Of a stretch of 64,000 nt of DNA, positions 11,279 to 52,449 are shown piece after piece; position 1 is the first letter of the stretch, and each line of letters starts with the position of its first letter. Below the pieces are notes generated by a model, which made no database searches, was not told the DNA's origin, and saw only the letters and a list, made by a program, of their open reading frames with translations. A program made the translations under genes and the position numbers. Origin of the DNA: Notolepis coatsorum (taxonomy: Eukaryota; Chordata; Actinopteri; Aulopiformes; Paralepididae); assembly GCA_963971535.1 (NCBI GenBank), contig OZ020593.1:34444576-34508575 (forward strand). Reading direction: 5' to 3'.

Positions 11279-11400
11279 GCTTTAGAAGAGGTTGCGGCCA
11301 TCTGTGCTTAGGGATCACCTCCGAAACCCCTCCCGGCTCTCACTCCGTCCAGAGCAGGTTAACGCGCAGCGCCAGTCCACGGCGGTAACTCCCTAGCAGC

Positions 11401-12015
11401 ATGGCGCCCAAGAAGGTTGAACCACCACCAAAAAAACCGGAGCCCAAAAAGCCAGAGCCCAAGAAGGAGGCGGCCCCGGCCGCCAAGCCAGCCCCGGCCC
11501 CGGAGCCCGAGCCCGAGGCCCCCAAGGAGATTGAGTTTGACCCCAAGAGCATCACCCTCGAGTACACCGCCGACCAGATCGACGAGTTCAAAGAGGCCTT
11601 CACCCTGTTCGACCGCACACCCAAGGGGGAGATGAAGATCACTTTCGCCCAGTGCGGGGACGTGATGCGCGCTCTGGGCCAGAATCCCACCAACTCCGAC
11701 GTGCTGAAGGTGCTCGGCAAGCCGCGGCCGGAGGACATGAGCACCAAGCTGGTGGACTTTGAGACCTTCCTGCCCATGCTGCAGCACATCTCCCGGGCCA
11801 AGGACCAGGGCAACTTTGAGGACTTTGTGGAGGGGCTGAGGGTCTTTGACAAGGAGGGCAACGGCACCATCATGGGGGCCGAGCTGCGTCACGTCCTGGC
11901 CACCCTGGGGGAGAGGATGACGGAGGACGAGGTGGACAGGCTGATGGCCGGGCAGGAGGACGCCAACGGCTGCATCAACTACGCCTCCTTCGTTAAGCAC
12001 ATCCTATCTGGATGA
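11401..12015 (+). CDS. Essential (alkali) myosin light chain, intronless
   Basis: An intact 204-residue essential myosin light chain of the MYL3/MYL4/MYL1 long form, which binds the lever arm of sarcomeric myosin heavy chain. Residues 2-42 form a Lys/Pro/Ala-rich extension opening APKK, the segment that contacts actin in long isoforms. Residues 57-204 are the EF-hand core: a degenerate loop at 71-82, a fairly complete loop [12 protein letters not shown] at 150-161, and the usual C-terminus [13 protein letters not shown]. The length fits the family (about 190-210). The ATG follows CCTAGCAGC, a good context, and no upstream in-frame alternative is better. Known MYL3/MYL4 genes have several introns; this frame is continuous, so it looks like a retrocopy or an intron-loss allele that has stayed functional. 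It is GC-rich, with G/C-biased third positions, unlike its surroundings. Which paralogue it descends from is not decidable by eye. Confidence 0.93.
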
Positions 12016-23299: not shown

Positions 23300-24717
23300 C
23301 GATAAATTCACGCCACTCATAAAAAAACCAACCCTTGAACCCCACCGTCATAGGCAACTATCGTCCTGTCTCTCTTCTCTCCTTCCTTTCTAAAACACTT
23401 GAACGTGCTGTATCCAACCAACTTACTGCTTATCTCTTACAGAATGACCTCCTAGACCCTAATCAGTCTGGCTTCCGGACTGGCCACTCCACAGAAACGG
23501 CCCTCATTGCGGTCACAGAGGCACTTCACTTAGCAAAAGCGAAAGGCCTCTCCTCTGTCCTGATTCTCCTAGATCTATCGGCAGCCTTCGACACAGTCAA
23601 CCATCAGATCCTCCTCGCTGCCCTCGCAGGAATGGGAGTGGCTGGCTCTGCGCTGACATGGCTGACATCATACCTCAATGACCGCTCCTACCAAGTGTCA
23701 TGGAGAGGGACCCTGTCGGCCACCCGGCCCCTGCGGACGGGTGTCCCCCAGGGCTCGGTCCTAGGACCCCTTCTCTTCTCCCTCTACACTAAATCACTGG
23801 GTAACATTATCACGTCTCATGGCTTCTCGTATCATTGTTATGCCGATGATATTCAACTCTTCCTCTCCTTCCCTCCCTCAGATATCCACGTCTCTGAGCG
23901 GATCTCGGCCTGTCTGTCCGACATCTCCGCCTGGATGACGACCAACCACCTCAAACTGAACCTAAGCAAAACAGAATTGCTCCACCTGCCGGCCAAATCA
24001 TCCCCCCTGACCGACCTTTCCATCACAGTTGAGAATGCAGCTCGACTACTGCAATGCACTGCTTGCTGGCCTCCTGGCCACTGCCACCAAGCCTCTTCAA
24101 CACATTCAGAACGCAGCGGCCCGCCTGATCTCAAACCTACCGAAGTCGGCCCATGTCACCCCACTTCTTAGGGACCTGCACTGGCTCCCCATTGCTGCAC
24201 GAATCCGCTTCAAGGCCCTCGACCTGGCATACCGTGCGGCAAAGGGAACCGTTCCCGCCTACCTCCGGTCAATGGTCTCTAACTACACACCCTCAAGACC
24301 CCTACGCTCTGCATCTTCGGGCCGCCTCAGACCTACTCCTATCCAAGCTCCGGGAGGGTCATCAAAGAGAAGTCGCATTCTCAGTACTTGCCCCACAATG
24401 GTGGAATGAACTACCCACCCCAGTTAGGACAGCCGAAACCTGTCCAATCTTTCGCCGTCGACTAAAGACGCACTTCTTCAACCATTATCTGAAAAAAAAA
24501 AAAAAAAAATAATAATAATAAAATATCTAACCCTAACTAACCTTACCGGCATGCACGTATCCTAATAAACTAACCTACACTGTAGCACTCAACACTTTGA
24601 TGAACATAGTTACTCAGCTGATAGAGTTGTACCCTTCCTGATGACTTGTCGTACAGAACTTGTAAGTCGCTTTGGATAAAAGCGTCAGCTAAATGACTAA
24701 ATGTAAATGTAAATGTA
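23300..24717 (+). mobile_element. L2-clade LINE, 5'-truncated, internally deleted
   Basis: The reverse transcriptase core is clear: NYRPVSLLSFLSKTLERAV, QSGFRTGHSTETAL, LDLSAAFDTVNHQILL, TGVPQGSVLGPLLFSLYT, YADDIQLFLSF and LKLNLSKTELL (mainly 23353-24036). Then TVENAA joins directly to LDYCNALLAGLLATATKPLQ, removing the stretch that normally links the thumb to the C-terminal region, so one internal deletion lies near 24035. The C-terminus continues to WWNELPTPVRTAETCPIFRRRLKTHFF after a frame change near 24380. The 3' end TCGCTTTGGATAAAAGCGTC and a TGTAAA-repeat tail are characteristic of fish L2. Only the 3' part of ORF2 is present; not autonomous. Confidence 0.92.
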
Positions 24718-34104: not shown

Positions 34105-36286
34105 ATGAATGAATGAATTATTTTATTTCGAATGTATAAAGCGAAATAAATAAACAAACAAATAATTTTTCAAACATTTTCACAAATAAACAAACGAAAA
34201 GGATAGGTTTGAAGCCAGAGGCTTATAGAGCAACCTACCCCTAATTAAAAAAAACAAATTCAAAAAAGTTAGTTTTCAAAATATAACAAACAAAAAATAA
34301 ATAAATCAACAATCAAAAATCAACAAAAAACGATCCAGAAAAGAACAAAAAAAGTAAAAGTTTGCAAGATAAAACAAACAAACAAACAAACAAACAAACA
34401 AAAAATCAACAATCAACAAAAACAAATTTGCTGAAAAGAACATAAGCCAACATAGGAAAAATCAAAAATTCATCTGCAATACCAGAGTTTCATGGTAGAA
34501 AAAAAGAAAAGAAAAAAAGATTGTAGGTTAAATTTTACTATAAGATTCTAGAACCCTGTTTTTAAACGTCTTTTTAAAAAAAAAAGACTCCTGCTGTTTT
34601 TTTATTGCATCCGGTATATTGTTCCAGAGTTTCACTCCTTTAACTGACACAGACATACTTTTAAGTGTGGTTCGAGCTCTAGGCTGTTTCAAATTGAGTG
34701 TTCTTCTTAAATTATACATCACCTCTCGTTCTTTAAACAAAATTTGTAAGTTACAGTACATGGCAGTTGATGACTTCTAGCTTTAAAAACTATAATAATA
34801 ATAACTTTATTTGTATAGCACTTTTCATACAGAGGTTGCAGTTCAAAGTGCTTCTCTGCTGTTTTAAGGTCAACTAAGTCGAGGAACTTTAATGCCCTTA
34901 GTTCAAAAAACAGTGTGTTTGTAGGATGGAGATAACTATTGTTCACAACCCTTATTGCCTTTTTCTGTAAGATGATAATAGGATTCAGATTAGTTTTGTA
35001 TGTGTTTCCCCAAGTTTCTATACAGTAAGTTAGATATGGTAATAAAAGAGTACAATACATTGTGTATAATGATCTCAAATTTAATATGTGGTTTTTCTTA
35101 AGATACCTAAGCTACGCGCTGTTTTTTTCTTTACATAGTTAATATGAGTTTTCCAGCTGAGGTTTTGGTCTATCACGACCCCCAAAAAAGTATATTAATT
35201 TACTCTTTCAAGATGAACATTATCTATGCATATCTCTACTTGAGTATGCGGATGTATTTTTTTTATTACCAAACAAAATAAATTTAGACTTACTTATATT
35301 TAAGGAGAGTTTGTTAGTATCAAGCCAACATTTCAGCTTCCCCAGTTCACCTGTAATATTTGTTAGCAACTGTTGTAGGTCTGCACCTGAACAAAAAATT
35401 TGGTATCATCTGCAAAAATTACAAATTTAAGTTTATCAGAAACATCAATGATATCATTAATATACAATATAAATAATTTCGGTCCTAAAATGGATCCTTG
35501 TTATCACTTTGCAGGATGATCTGGTCTCCCCCATCTGCACACATTGTTTCCTATTTTCTATGTAACTTTTTATCCAACTGAGCCCTATCCCTCTAATTCC
35601 ATACTTTTCAAGTTTTCTGAGTAAAATATCATGGTCAATGGTATCGAAAGCTTTTTTCAGATCAATAAAAACTCCAACTGCATACTGTTTATTATCGATT
35701 GAATTTGTTAAGTCTTCTGCTACCTGCATGAGAGCCATTGATGTGGATCTGTTAGTTCTGAATCCATACTGGCTATCAATCAATATCTCATTCTTATCAA
35801 TAAAACTGTCCAGACGTGCAACAAAAAGTTTTTCCAGAATTTTTGAAAATTGAGGAAGTAAAGAAACAGGCCTATAATTTGTAAAAACTTTTTTTTCTCC
35901 TGCTTTATGTATTGGAATGACTTTGGCTGTTTTCATTTCAGTTGGAAAGGTCCCCATCCTAAAAGATAGATTATGAAAGTAATTGGATCTACAATTTCTT
36001 TGATTCGTTTTTTAATAAGAGACATGTCTAACCCATTCACATCTGTAGATGTTTTATTCTTGAGATTGTTTACAATATCAATTATTTCCATATTAGATAC
36101 GTCATACAAAAAGATTGTGGATGGATTTCTATCAATGTATTGTGCTGCAATAGCTCCCCCTTGTGGAGGCTTGATCTTCCTTGCAAGATCTGGGCCAACA
36201 TTTACAAAAAAATTATTAAACTCCTCCACTACCTCATTGGTTATTTCCGTTCCATTTACAGAAAAATTATCAATGACATATGACAT
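34105..36286 (-). mobile_element. Jockey/Rex-like LINE, broken
   Basis: Minus-strand ORF2 pieces in order: an upstream segment (ITNEVVEEFNNFFVNVGPDL, near 36230), RT core NYRPVSLLPQFSKILEKLF, QYGFRTNRSTSMAL and IDLKKAFDTIDHDILLRKL (35880-35620), then the C-terminal part LLPYLTYCIETWGNTYKTNL (about 35040) and GVKLWNNIPDAIKK (about 34620). The GVPQGS and YADD blocks are missing between about 35080 and 35500, and frames change several times, so it is dead. The 3' end carries ATTC repeats at 34105-34120. A foreign LINE tail is inserted at about 34784-34857. Confidence 0.88.
34784..34857 (-). mobile_element. LINE 3' tail inserted in another LINE
   Basis: CTTTATTTGTATAGCACTTTTCATAC with adjoining ATA repeats is the inverted form of the tail at 27.6-27.7 kb. 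It breaks the C-terminal region of the Jockey/Rex-like LINE. Confidence 0.7.
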
Positions 36287-42587: not shown

Positions 42588-42635
42588 TGGGCGTGGTTTA
42601 CCTGAGGCATGGACGTGGTTTACCTGAGGCGTGGA
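42588..42635. repeat. 22-bp minisatellite, left remnant
   Basis: Two units of the GTGGTTTACCTGAGGCGTGGAC repeat, cut off from the main array at 45.7-46.5 kb by the hAT insertion. Confidence 0.95.
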
Positions 42636-43115
42636 CAGGGACGTTGAAAGGGGGGGTGCGGGGGGGGGCTGCAGCACCTCCTCTCAATTATTGCAAAAAA
42701 ATTATAAAAAAAATATATATATATATATATATTTTTTGTAATGTTTTTTTTTATGACAGTATTTATATATTTGTATATACTGTAACTGTATAACTGTAAC
42801 ACTGTATATTATAAGTTTATCCTGCTCAAAGCACTTAACCATTTTAATATTGTGTGTATTGAGCCGTACTGTATTGTAGCCATTCTCCAATCTGTCATTA
42901 CACTACTGTATGTACACAATCATACGTGTAAAACCGAGTAGATTTTCGAGTGATGACAGACTGTCACAGACTGATTGAATGACAGGTGAAACAACTAATT
43001 GTATTCACCCCCCGTCTCCCGCCCTTCCCACGCGCCACGAACCACTGAGCTACTGTGATACAGTGCTTGCGCAGTCAGTCGATTTTAGCTAGTAGTCAGA
43101 CTTTGCTAGCACAGA

Positions 43116-45625: not shown

Positions 45626-45693
45626 AAAAAAAAAAATGTATCATCTGGCGACCCCCCAGCATCCCCTGCCGTTTTATAGTTCCAACGTGCCTG

Positions 45694-46468
45694 GGCGTGG
45701 ACGTGGTTTACCTGAGGCGTGGGCGTGGTTTACCTGAGGCATGGACGTGGTTTACCTGAGGCATGGACGTGGTGTACCTGAGGCGTGGGTGTGGTTTACC
45801 TGAGGCGTGGGCGTGGTTTACCTGAGGTGTGGACGTGGTTTACCTGAGGCGTGGGCGTGGTTTACCTGAGGCGTGGACGTGGTTTACCTGAGGCGTGGAC
45901 GTGGTTTACCTGAGGCATGGACGTGGTTTACCTGAGGCATGGACGTGGTTTACCTGAGGCGTGGGCGTGGTTTACCTGAGGCATGGACGTGGTTTACCTG
46001 AGGCATGGACGTGGTTTACCTGAGGCGTGGACGTGGTTTACCTGAGGCGTGGGCGTGGTTTACCTGAGGCGTGGACGTGGTTTACCTGAGGCGTGGGCAT
46101 GGTTTACCTGAGGCGTGGACGTGGTTTACCTGAGGCGTGGACGTGGTTTACCTGAGGCATGGACGTGGTTTACCTGAGGCATGGACATGGTTTACCTGAG
46201 GCGTGGGCGTGGTTTACCTGAGGCATGGACGTGGTTTACCTGAGGCATGGACGTGGTTTACCTGAGGCGTGGACGTGGTTTACCTGAGGCGTGGGCGTGG
46301 TTTACCTGAGGCGTGGGCGTGGTTTACCTGAGGCATGGGCATGGTTTACCTGAGGCGTGGACGTGGTTTACCTGAGGCGTGGACGTGGTTTACCTGAGGC
46401 GTGGGCGTGGTTTACCTGAGGCGTGGGCGTGGTTTACCTGAGGCGTGGGCGTGGTTTATCTGAGGCGT
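45694..46468. repeat. 22-bp minisatellite, main array (~35 units)
   Basis: Unit GTGGTTTACCTGAGGCGTGGAC, with the common alternatives CATGG/CGTGG and GGGCG/GGACG between units. Variants occur in repeating groups, indicating higher-order duplications. Confidence 0.97.
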
Positions 46469-46470
46469 GT

Positions 46471-46791: not shown

Positions 46792-46813
46792 GTTCTGTAT
46801 CGTATCGCTCTCG

Positions 46814-46960
46814 CTCGGCATCGCTCTCTGCACTATCTCGCATACGTGCACGCGCACTGAATAAAGACCACAATGTACCTTTAATCCCAATATTTGTCTG
46901 ACCACACCCCTATCAGCTTACCCATATAAGCAGGGGTGGGGCCACCCACTCTCCTCCTTC
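46814..46960 (+). repeat. DIRS left inverted terminal repeat
   Basis: 147 bp, a perfect inverted match to 52041-52187, with weaker similarity continuing inward to about 46976. Confidence 0.95.
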
Positions 46961-49900
46961 TCGCTTTCACCACAAGGAAGAAGTGCCTCGGTAGATCCCC
47001 ACACTTGACACCATGATGGAAGAAAGGTTTAGGAGCAGCTTTGGGAAACAAGGATACGTTGACATCATATCTTTATTTTCTCTCTCACTATTTTCGAGAA
47101 AATACGGCGATATTGTCTTCGTACTGGAGTGTCTGGAAGATGATGATCATTCTAAAAACCCTCCACCGGTTTTCGTATTGGGAGCACGCCGCTGCATGCT
47201 TCTCAACTGCAGTTCCTTGCTGTGTTTGTTGGGGTGAAACCTGTCAGGCCACAGCTGAACTGTCGGACATGCCGCTGTTGTGAGAAGCGGTGCGTTCCAG
47301 GTTGGGTGAGTAGTGTTTGCTGGCGGGCTCCACTTGTCTGTTAGTGCTATGGGGGCTACTTGACAAAGTTTATGGAAACCGGCCCCAGGCTAGGGTCCTT
47401 TGTTTAGCCACCTAGGCGACAGAAGGCCTTGGTCTGAAGACCATTATAGTTTTAACTAGTGGGCCGCGACCATTGACACTGGTGATCCCTGTGTGTTCTG
47501 GACGAGTGGATTCTCTCTGTCACCGTGTTAAGGCCCCATATTTCATATCCAAATGAGAGTATTCCTTCACGAGGGGAAATGTGCATGTAATGTGCGATAG
47601 CGGCAGATTCATGTTCAAAGTCAGCTACACAGGCCAGTTGGTACAGTGCTGATTCCGTCGGATGTGGTAAAGTCACCGTTGTGAAGCGGTGTTGACATCT
47701 TGTTTTCTCTTTTCTCTTAAAAAGTGAGGAGAGGTTCAGAACGGCGGCCTGTCTGGGTGAGTGTTATGTCATTGTTTACATGTTCATAGCTTACGGTTAG
47801 CCAGTCAGCTGTTAACTGCTGCGTTAGCCTGCTGGATCGCTGCATGGCCTGCTTAGGGCCTACTATTAGCCAGTCAGCTGTTAGCTGCGGGGCTAGCATG
47901 TCGTGGTCGCTAGGTAACGTTAGCTTGCTGCTATGGGCCATGGCTGGCGCGGGGTAGCTTAGCTTCTCGCGCGCCGCCGTGAGCTCGCTTCTGATCGCGT
48001 GCGTCGTTAGCTCGGCGTGTCGCGAGCAGAAGCAGTAGCACCCGAACGGTTGGAGCGGCCGTTAGCTTGATGCTATTCCGTTGAACGTGCTTTGATTTTA
48101 ACATGTTTTACACTCTTGACCACGACGTCATCCTTGACAGGGGATGTTTCGTCGACCCTGCCCTGAGCCAGGACGGCAAGGTTGCATCAACAGGGGACTG
48201 TAGTGCGGGTTGGGGCGGTGACGCTGCCCAGTTCGGACAACACAGGAGCGGCTGTGTTCCTACGGTGTCTGTGACTGCACTTCGCTGATCTGCGTTCCGG
48301 GTAGGAACGGGGTTGACCAGACCTCATAACACGTCTTCTGGTTTTACTTTTTCTAAATGTATTGTGAATAACGGTGTTTTTCCCAAAACGTGTGTTGCTA
48401 CAATGCATTTAGGATACGTTGCGGGTTATGTGTGAGCTGTTTTTGTCACTGGCAGTTAGCTTCTCCGTGCAAATCGGGGAATGATCTGGTTGTTGTGTGA
48501 GAAACATCATGGTGTTTATATGCACCGTGTACTCACAACTAAGGTAACTAACCTATGAAGCTATGCTTGGTGACAAGTGAGTAAAAGAATGTTCTTTCTC
48601 AGACTGTAATGACAATGAACAGTGTGTTCACACATTAACAGGTTTTCCTGTTTTAACTGGCCGTATTGAGGGTAAAATAGGAGGATTGTGTTTCCCCCCC
48701 GGTTCCCTGGGGACTTTTTCATCCTCCTATCAGACATGTTGTGCATTAATTGTGTCTTTTGTGTGGTAGGGATACGATGTAACTCTTAGCTTGATTGCTG
48801 AGGTTGTGCTAAATCTGCTGGAGAAACTTATTTCCTAAAGGGAAATTGGTTTGGTTGCTGTCATGTGTGCTTAGCAAGGCCTGTGGTCGATACTAATCAA
48901 GAATGATGTATTCTCTCATTGTGAAAAAAACGGCGTTCCTCTGTTGAGTGTTTTTGCCATTTTTTGTAGGTGATGATGGGTTGTGTGTGTCATGTGACCT
49001 ACAACTGGGTTGTACTGGCCACAGAAGCACATGTGTATGTTGGACCGGGGTTCTTAGAGCCCTCTCTATTCTGTGTTTTTCCTTAGTAAAAATCAGATAG
49101 CAGGTTAGCTCATGCGCTGTGTGGAGCTGTGAAACGCTTCATAGAGCTGACTATGACTGTGTCATATTCTCTTTTTGTCGTTACATCGTATCATGGGTGT
49201 GGGGTCGTAAAGGGGTGAACTGGTAACCTTTCCTCTCCCCATTGTTCTGTCGGTCAGGGGTACACCCCCTGTCCTTCAAGGTTCCCGTCACGTGGCGGTT
49301 CGGCACATTACGGGGGGGAGGGAGTTCCTGGTCCCACGGCCTGGTATATTGGGCGTGTGCACCGCAGGAATTCCCCCGCCATAGAGTACGTCACCGTGCG
49401 CGTCTCTGTTGGTAGGACTTCCGTGTGCTGTTCAGGTCCATGTGATGGATCTGTTTTCAGGGGGGGTGGTCAGGGCTCCTCCTCACCAAGCGCCTATTCA
49501 GGCCTTCTGTGAGTTCGGACTCCTTCTTCCATGTGAGGAAGCCTCCATCAGAGTACAGAGCCTTCCTCCTCAGATTGTCAAAGTGAGTGGACCCTCTAGA
49601 AGGGTCCTTTTCTATTGTATGTATATTCGATTCAATTCGTTTATTGAGTGTGTATGGGTTCAGTGCCTCTTCCCCGGAGGCCCTAAAACCAGTTTTTTAC
49701 ATGGCTCAAGGTGCAATATATTCTTTTCAATCTGTACAGCTCGCGTGGGAAGTCTCTCTGGGGATCCCCGTCTCTTTCCTATGGGAGGGTGGTGGGATGT
49801 AAAAATGTGAACATTTTTTACCCCGGCTGTGTAGACTGGGATACATACTGTTGATGCTTCCTTCTTTCTATTCCAGAAGTGTTGGAGTTAGGGAGTGTCA

Positions 49901-50517
49901 CACCCCTCTTGTCGTTCCCCTGGGCGCCTTGGGGATTCAATGACAGGTCTAATTAGCCTGTTCATTGATGGGGGTGTGTCCCGACGCACGTATAGTGCTA
50001 GCTCGCTGTAAACAGGCGATTGACTGGCACGCCTTGGTTGCTTGTGGTTGAAACAGCGTTTTTATAAAGCAACTGAGATGGGGGTTTTTCCTCTTCCGAC
50101 GACCACATCCCATGACCTGGGTGGGTTGTCGACGGATTCTCGTTCATGTCTGGGGGATGATGACGGGATGGATCTGAACATATGTGGTGGGGTCTCACGC
50201 CCTTGGGGTGGGCCACCAGGCGCGGTTCGTCCGAACGTCTGGGTGGCGCCTTCTTTTCATGTTAAGATCGACACGCATATCTGCCCTTCTCCTGGAGTAG
50301 GCATGTCGGCGTGGTTAGGGCACGGGACTGGTTCTGGTCACGCTGGTCCGGATCAGTTGAACCCGTTGTCCGCCGGGGATGCAGATCTGCTGTTCTGGTA
50401 CCCTGAGGGACTTGGGCTTTTTTCAGGGGGAAAAATGCCAGGTCGGTCTGGGTGTCACAGGGTTAAGCGCTATGGAGACCCTGGTTGGGTATGTTTTTAC
50501 TCGGCACTGTCGTCATG

Positions 50518-50636
50518 GCTTACAGCCATGCCATTCTGTACGCGCTCGATCTCGTCGGATCTCGGCCGCTACACAGGTTGGTCCTGGTTAGTACTTGGTT
50601 GGGAGACCGCCGGGGAATACCAGGTACGGTGTGCTT
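50518..50636 (+). ncRNA. 5S rRNA-like sequence, copy 1 (diverged)
   Basis: Starts GCTTACAGCCATGCC and ends near GGTACGGTGTGCTT. It keeps CTGGTTAGTACTTGG and GAGACCGCC of the 5S internal promoter and is clearly 5S-derived, but more diverged than copy 2. A T run of five follows at about 50655. Probably a pseudogene, though polymerase III recruitment is not excluded. Confidence 0.85.
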
Positions 50637-51296
50637 AGGGGCTGGTTCTCCATTATTTTTCGCTCCTCTCTCACGCATGGCGAAGAGGGGCCTGTGGGGG
50701 TGGTTTTTTGACCTCCTCTGGTGACCCTGTGCTTCCCGTACCGCCAGGCCCGGTCCGAAGTGATGTTTGCGACCCGTAGGCCTGGGTTAACCCTTTTTGG
50801 AAACTGAAACACTTGTACTGCGGTATAGCCGGTGTATACCCGCAGGTGTGTTTTGGAGTTTTTTCTTGAGGGGTTATAGGAACAACCACCGCATTGGGTA
50901 ACACCGAGGTGGTTGATTCCCTGGTGTGTTGGAGCAGTGTCAACTCCCGGGTTCACCGTTTGAGGGTGCCCCTGCACGTTCATGACGTCTGCCAATCGTG
51001 TCAGCCTTCTCTGCCTCGACCCCTCTGGGTGGGGGTTTTTAAATGGAGGCTTGGTCATGCAACACCGCCAGCTTACGCTCCTTCCGCCGGGGCGGCTGTG
51101 TTCAGCTGTCCCCTCTGGCGCCTGTCTCGTCCGCAGTCTCCAGGCTAGGGTTAACAGCCTGTTGCCTGGTTTTTCCCCGGTGCGCTGCCTGCTTCCGTTG
51201 GTTAACCTTTTTTGTGTGCTTACGGCCATGCTGACTGCCTGTTCTGCAGGGTCAGTGTGCCAGGCGGTGTACTATTGGGGGGACGGGGCCCGCTCG

Positions 51297-51416
51297 GCTT
51301 ACGGCCATACCAACCTGAACACGCCCGATCTCGTCCGATCTCGGAAGCTAAGCAGGTTCTGGCCTGGTTAGTACTTGGATGGGATTCCGCCTGGGAATAC
51401 CAGGTGCAGTAACTGA
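51297..51416 (+). rRNA. 5S rRNA-like sequence, copy 2 (well conserved)
   Basis: Starts GCTTACGGCCATACC, includes ACGCCCGATCTCGTCCGATC, GAAGCTAAGCAGG (A box), GCCTGGTTAGTACTTGGATG and CGCCTGGGAATACCAGGTGC, and is 120 bases, the canonical 5S length. A few differences fall in the C-box region and the 3' strand of helix I. No TTTT terminator follows immediately. Same orientation as copy 1, 779 bases downstream. Confidence 0.88.
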
Positions 51417-51902
51417 GGGGCCTTTGTCCGAATACGCTGGCGATGTGGGGGGCGGGGCACTACGTGCCCACCTGGTGGGGTCTTGATGCTGGCATCATGG
51501 ACTTCTCCGGGCCCCCATTCTAGGGAGTCCAGTCCTTTTGGTGGGTCTGGGTCTTCCTTCGTGCTCCGCTGCTACGGCCTTGCCACGGGGTTGGGTTTGC
51601 CCTTGACCCCGTGATTCTGGGGGCAGTAACGAGGTTGTTCCTCCGTTCGTTCCCGGGTGGCATGCGGGTTGTGCGTGTGTGTAGTCGTGGGGTCAAGCCA
51701 CGGTCTGCTCACCCTGTGCGTTGAGTTGCTTGAGTGCCTCTTCGCACGGTCGGGTCCGTCGCCCTCCCGTGAAGCCCCTAATAGGGGGGGTGCCCGCCAT
51801 TAGGGTGGGTCGGGGGGGCTCGGCCCTCCCTGTTCTGATGGTTTGTGGGGGGCTGTCAGCGGGGTGTATTTGTCGGCCGTTGGCTCTCGCTCGGCCTCCC
51901 TT

Positions 51903-51995
51903 GTGCAGAGAGCGATGCCGAGCGAGAGCGATACGATACAGAACGTTAGGTTATGACTATAACCAAGTTCTGTTAGTATAGCGACGCTCGGCATC
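51903..51995 (+). repeat. DIRS internal complementary region
   Basis: 51903-51944 is complementary to the left terminus and 51942-51995 to the right terminus, meeting at AACGTT. Confidence 0.92.
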
Positions 51996-52040
51996 CGACG
52001 CCGCTGCAGCCTTTGACCTCGCCTTGTGGCGAAAGCTTGG

Positions 52041-52187
52041 GAAGGAGGAGAGTGGGTGGCCCCACCCCTGCTTATATGGGTAAGCTGATAGGGGTGTGGT
52101 CAGACAAATATTGGGATTAAAGGTACATTGTGGTCTTTATTCAGTGCGCGTGCACGTATGCGAGATAGTGCAGAGAGCGATGCCGAG
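52041..52187 (-). repeat. DIRS right inverted terminal repeat
   Basis: 147 bp, perfect inverted copy of 46814-46960. The element continues to the terminal GTT at 52230. Confidence 0.95.
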
Positions 52188-52449
52188 CGTCGCTATACTA
52201 ACAGAACTTGGTTATAGTCATAACCTAACGTTATATAGCTAGCTGCCGTTATTAATGTAATAGTTGTGTATGTGACTAAGCTGATTCAGTTGAGGAATAC
52301 AAGAGGAATCATAACTAACCTCCTGACCCCCTCCCCCCTGCCCTCTTTCTCTCTCTCTCTCTCTCTCTGGATGATTTAAAAAAAAAAAATTAGTAGACAT
52401 CACTCAGGTGTATTTATTGATGCTCTCATTGATACTATGTTTGTTTCTG

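Follow-up and report, generated by a model that had tools for sequence, protein, structure and literature searches.

The stretch analysed here, called the window throughout, is a 64,000-nucleotide (64-kb) piece of the genome of the teleost Notolepis coatsorum (assembly GCA_963971535.1, contig OZ020593.1, positions 34,444,576 to 34,508,575). Its plus strand, to which all coordinates refer unless stated otherwise, holds at 46792-52232 a complete DIRS-type element of 5441 bp, found as the same unit in other copies, that carries two segments resembling 5S rRNA and has no recognisable genes. The element begins and ends with GTT (46792-46794 and 52230-52232). Its left conserved inverted terminal repeat (ITR; 46812-46960, 149 nt) is 100% complementary to the right one (52041-52189, 149 nt), and comparison of the ends places a divergent portion of the repeat at the extreme left (46792-46811) and, at the right, a divergent part together with an extension (52190-52232), the extension measuring about 25-27 nt depending on the alignment. 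Immediately inside the right inverted repeat lies the internal complementary region (ICR; 51903-51995), in which a left part (51903-51944) is the complement of the left end, 46792-46833, at 42 of 42 positions and a right part (51942-51995) that of the right end, 52179-52232, at 54 of 54, the two overlapping at AAC (51942-51944). A one-sided extension of the inverted terminal repeats, and ICRs that match both ends and overlap on the 3-bp circular junction, are as expected of a DIRS1-like element. The original prediction, made from the letters of the window, had read this signature of perfect inverted repeats, a region complementary to both ends and outer GTT motifs correctly; it gave the repeat as 147 bp, of which the perfect complementarity stands and the length becomes 149 nt. 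A TATA-like ATATAAG in the left repeat (46924-46930) is a possible RNA polymerase II (Pol II) promoter, to judge from the sequence only. At the left edge of the ICR, 51883-51929 forms an imperfect inverted repeat (48-nt alignment, 83%) that could fold into a hairpin.

The two 5S rRNA-like segments lie near the 3' end of the element, outside the terminal repeats. Segment 1 (50518-50635; Rfam 66.6 bits, E 8.2e-12) and segment 2 (51297-51415; 94.8 bits, E 2.8e-19) are both on the plus strand and above the Rfam gathering score of 38 for 5S rRNA, and no further Rfam match was found in the window, or in the element up to an E of 2. When compared with a canonical 5S sequence, segment 2 shows 7 substitutions and 2 gaps and segment 1 shows 21 substitutions and 2 gaps, in agreement with the earlier description of two 5S-like sequences in the same orientation, one of them nearly canonical. 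Similarity between the segments is limited to about 126 nt, beginning no more than 1 nt from the 5S start and ending a few nucleotides past the 5S end, and therefore the 661-bp spacer between them is not repeated as it would be in a 5S array; a tandem 5S rDNA array, in which homologous spacers surround each 5S, was rejected on these grounds. A possible third remnant at 51218-51229 is a 12-nt match to the 5S start (E 0.34), equalled in 5 of 200 resamples.

Between the left repeat and the ICR, the interior (46961-51902) is A-poor on the plus strand and has no recognisable protein domains. Searching six frames of the element, with X at stops, returned no Pfam family at E <= 5, and the three plus-strand frames returned no NCBIfam family, as anticipated by the first reading, which had recognised no enzyme domain; the same domain procedure recovered a broken reverse transcriptase of a long interspersed element (LINE) elsewhere in the window. 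The longest stop-to-stop frame is 227 aa. Open reading frames of 204 aa and 141 aa have no relatives in the protein database at E <= 0.001, where a LINE query from the window, run as a control, matched 7619 proteins, with named fishes as the source of many of the 120 listed, a further sign of a teleost host. Profile searches thus found none of the genes of DIRS1-like elements, namely gag, the reverse transcriptase-RNase H-methyltransferase (RT-RH-MT) and the tyrosine recombinase, and because these domains were not found the element is classed as a non-autonomous DIRS derivative and not as an autonomous DIRS.

That the element belongs to a family was shown by searching the 3.42-Gb assembly with its left 169 bp. 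A first look gave 1139 candidates, which are not a copy number because several may come from one element, and the best 40 were scored; the window's own identical left end is missing from these, which are therefore a sample of the best-scoring places. The left end is identical at 169 of 169 positions in all 40, and the interior next to it is common to all 30 loci returned. Longer stretches retrieved at 20 places were in every case the same element: 18 align along it, some of them carrying deletions or cut short at the right, one (L032) aligns along it and carries a nested insertion, and in one (L031) an insertion displaces the 3' part beyond the fetched stretch. Segment 1 is present in all 20 and segment 2 in 19, L031 being the exception. 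At the remaining 20 places, each represented by 1401 bp, segment 2 was found in 18 and segment 1 in 17; two of these stretches (L055 and L058) start past segment 1, one (L065) holds 313 N, and one (L061) is without the interior and, when fetched again at 6401 bp (L071), proved to be a rearranged family member with segment 2. Over the 40 best-scoring copies, both segments are present in 35 and at least one in all 40, each of the five copies with a single segment being explained by a short fetched stretch, a run of N or a rearrangement, and where a stretch spans them both segments nearly always exceed the Rfam gathering score. The original prediction had proposed this search and had named copies without 5S, or a separate host cluster, as the contrary outcome; many copies share termini, interior and 5S, the contrary outcome was not seen among the 40, and both segments are part of the mobile unit, as the predicted DIRS-type carriage of 5S implied. 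Both appear, on this comparison, to predate the divergence of the copies examined and to have been present in their common ancestor. The rearranged copy L071 consists of a left part, then repeats, then an inverted right part bearing one 5S segment.

An alignment of 18 copies and the window (19 sequences, with L031 and L032 left out for their nested insertions) gave pairwise divergences of 0.22-0.95%, with a median of 0.45%. Left flanks are dissimilar among 21 copies, save for repeat-type matches at several offsets among L031, L034, L044 and L045, so that, as expected of a mobile DIRS1-like element, the same ends stand at all 40 scored places and in unrelated flanks for 21; among the 20 places outside the flank comparison, two are on the same contig, separated by about 15 kb, and may stem from a duplication. 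The pattern resembles that left by insertions made independently in a recent burst, which produced a young, dispersed family. When singleton changes were polarised by taking the commonest base as ancestral, A>G was found at 38 of 989 A sites and T>C at 13 of 1588 T sites (Fisher p 2e-7), and the excess persists (20 against 7) in the 15 of 19 sequences having fewer than four A>G changes. The plus strand of the interior is 17.6% A, 29.7% T, 29.4% G and 23.3% C, and T-over-A skew is 0.12-0.31 in nine 500-bp blocks of the element, compared with a mean of -0.02 (standard deviation 0.13) outside it, where 12 of 113 such blocks exceed 0.13. The A>G excess and the A-poor plus strand together point to an RNA step with the plus strand as the RNA strand, and a strand-specific error process at the RNA or reverse-transcription step, possibly a mark left by the reverse transcriptase or by damage to the RNA, may be responsible. 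ADAR editing was considered as the cause and rejected, since the changes are spread over copies and their 5' neighbours (C 14, G 11, T 9, A 4) do not fit the neighbour preference of ADAR.

Comparison with known systems places the element nearest to the DIRS1-like elements of fishes. In a published table of 28 DIRS1-like elements (PMC3266345), the closest teleost member is GaDIRS1 of stickleback, with 5322 bp, triplets GTT/GTT/AAC, a conserved ITR of 148, a right extension of 27 and ICRs of 46-56; the present element has the same triplets and corresponding values of 5441 bp, 149, 25-27 and 42-54, a comparison of lengths and triplets and not of sequence. Unlike GaDIRS1, it is without recognisable gag, RT-RH-MT and recombinase and bears the 5S-like segments. 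In being a non-autonomous retroelement with 5S-derived sequence it resembles the TRIMp3 group (Cassandra, Ajax) of terminal-repeat retrotransposons in miniature (TRIMs), which are long terminal repeat (LTR) miniatures of less than 1.3 kb having small-RNA sequence in their LTRs as an RNA polymerase III (Pol III) promoter (PMC10886601). It differs from these in its 5.4-kb length, its DIRS ends and the position of its 5S outside the repeats: in place of LTRs with a primer binding site, polypurine tract and internal small-RNA sequence, its terminal repeats are inverted and have no 5S match, and in place of conserved Pol III boxes, 6 and 4 of the 39 box positions are changed. With the short interspersed elements (SINEs) derived from 5S, or SINE3 (PMC5753468, PMC10886601), it shares 5S-derived sequence beginning at the 5S start; however, behind the 5S there is no common body past a few nucleotides, the longest flank repeat is 7 nt, and the carrier is a DIRS element. 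Old insertions could lose their duplications, and a SINE3 origin may be possible for both segments.

Large retrotransposon derivatives (LARDs) have a long non-coding interior between intact terminal repeats and are mobilised in trans. The present element is like them in its long non-coding interior, intact terminal repeats and proposed trans mobilisation, and unlike them in having DIRS ends and an ICR in place of LTRs, in addition to its 5S content. It very probably represents a young, multi-copy, non-autonomous, LARD-like family of DIRS type in a teleost, moved in trans and carrying 5S sequence as sense-strand cargo, a reading of which the anatomy, the lack of domains, the family status, the shared 5S segments, the youth and the strand-biased substitution are the observed parts. 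The features thought to be needed in cis for DIRS replication, that is the inverted repeats, right extension, ICR and GTT/AAC triplets, are kept, and about 4.9 kb without recognisable domains stands in place of the expected gag, RT-RH-MT and tyrosine recombinase. The other parts of the reading, the trans mobilisation, circle, promoter and cargo role, we infer as follows. As in the DIRS-1 model, where terminal sequence is rebuilt by means of the ICR and a circle is inserted by the recombinase (a model not fully proven, though DIRS-1 circles have been seen; PMC5633606), Pol II would transcribe the plus strand starting in the left repeat, the ICR would template the missing ends and close the circle, and the recombinase would insert the circle at GTT. 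Having no enzymes of its own, the element must be moved in trans, and a DIRS element elsewhere would provide the reverse transcriptase and recombinase. The 5S segments, lying in the sense of the element RNA, most likely entered as cargo and were amplified with the element without driving it; cargo is the simplest fit, though they may act as RNA handles.

Several points weigh against the non-autonomous cargo reading. The sample is limited to the 40 top-scoring places, and the remainder may include members lacking 5S; the strand bias assumes that the commonest base is ancestral, and transcription-linked mutation could be an alternative source of it; and the description of the interior as non-coding leans on known profiles, so that a novel protein may be encoded there. 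An autonomous partner was not found among the three of 18 genome matches to PF00589 that were read, which look like Cryptons. These three (L072, L073 and L074) also match DUF3504, which is typical of Cryptons, and similarity to the element is absent from L072 and L073 and amounts in L074 to a 32-nt stretch at chance level; such Crypton-like loci were rejected as the partner, with the proviso that the fetched stretches may fall short of those elements' ends. In L072, a 419-aa open frame at 2869-4125 matches both tyrosine recombinase and DUF3504 and is apparently a Crypton, and frames of 419 aa are present at 7 of the 18 matches.

Among other explanations, the segments could be a working RNA domain, a 5S mimic that binds ribosomal protein L5 or TFIIIA, aids export, stability or the meeting with the partner's proteins, and has been kept for that reason. 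Two full-length 5S-like segments in the RNA sense, scoring well in nearly all copies that cover them, are consistent with such a role, as is the L5-bound 5S mimic known in plant TFIIIA pre-mRNA (PMC5972288). However, in a comparison of 79 windows (those with at least 30% gaps left out), nucleotide diversity is 0.36% and 0.81% in the two segments and has a median of 0.45% over the inner windows, 34 and 64 of the 79 being as low or lower, so that conservation of the segments does not exceed that of the remaining element; their predicted folds are likewise not clearly 5S-like, with stabilities near those of shuffled sequence (z -1.57 and -0.17). We regard this explanation as unlikely, and give equally little credence to its extension, a gene-less DIRS lineage whose two 5S RNA handles recruit L5 and TFIIIA to its non-coding RNA, give it an edge as a parasite of its autonomous partner and so account for the recent burst of 5S-bearing copies. 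The original prediction proposed instead that the 5S DNA supplies an internal Pol III promoter, which would drive the element in the manner of Cassandra and Ajax. Known 5S-bearing retroelements are indeed driven by 5S promoters, and TRIMs bearing 5S or tRNA sequence have conserved promoter motifs and a short total length tied to Pol III processivity (PMC10886601). The intermediate element is unaltered in both segments. Against this, T runs downstream (50656-50660 and 51536-51539) would stop Pol III transcripts at about 143 and 243 nt, the 39 box positions carry 6 changes (6.9 expected) and 4 changes (2.3 expected), about as often as elsewhere, and the segments sit near the 3' end, outside the repeats, of an element whose 5.4 kb contrast with that short length. 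A promoter role is on these counts highly improbable.

It is just as doubtful that the element is an autonomous DIRS that has decayed or diverged and whose proteins escape present profiles. Its DIRS-like length and its GC content of 52.7% over 46792-52232, beside a fish DIRS mean of 53.8% (PMC7599744), would suit such an origin, and the 204-aa plus-strand frame is intact in all 19 aligned sequences (insertions not counted), where a rough estimate would expect about two breaks; the empty six-frame Pfam search, the longest frame of 227 aa, the two open reading frames without relatives and the interruption of the other long frames in 2, 2 and 5 of 19 sequences argue against it. Least credible of all is a host 5S cluster, or 5S pseudogenes that landed in a single copy by chance. 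Copies of 5S flanked by transposable elements have been reported in a fish genome (PMC3503869), but here 35 of 40 other copies have the two segments at corresponding places and the spacer is unlike that of a 5S array, which refutes a one-off insertion or host cluster for the copies examined.

The family extends 5S-derived sequence, known in LTR miniatures and SINEs, to tyrosine-recombinase retrotransposons. No report of a DIRS element with 5S sequence was apparent, by title and abstract start, among the open-access papers listed (Repbase and most subscription journals being outside the search), and to that extent the earlier statement that no 5S-bearing DIRS was known holds. The phrase non-autonomous DIRS, in either spelling, was not found in the open-access papers searched, and PMC10886601, in its available text, makes no mention of DIRS. 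Patterns for the ITR and ends gave no match in viral and genome contig collections, where the 5S patterns also gave none, so that these are uninformative on fish DNA. The element disperses 5S-like DNA and might, as the original prediction proposed, seed 5S loci, though both versions are altered; it offers a tangible means by which 5S-like copies could be scattered through a fish genome. With two matches above the Rfam threshold in every complete copy examined, 5S gene counts and chromosome mapping can be misled. Being recently expanded and lacking recognisable genes, this DIRS family should also be useful for learning which sequences DIRS replication needs in cis.

Elsewhere in the window, a 22-bp minisatellite of about 35 copies (45690-46469) ends about 320 bp before the element, and a similar unit forms a small array at 42588-42636. 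There is a LINE-type reverse transcriptase frame at 23323-24168, a broken one on the minus strand at 35460-36011, and a 208-aa frame with EF-hand matches at 11389-12012.

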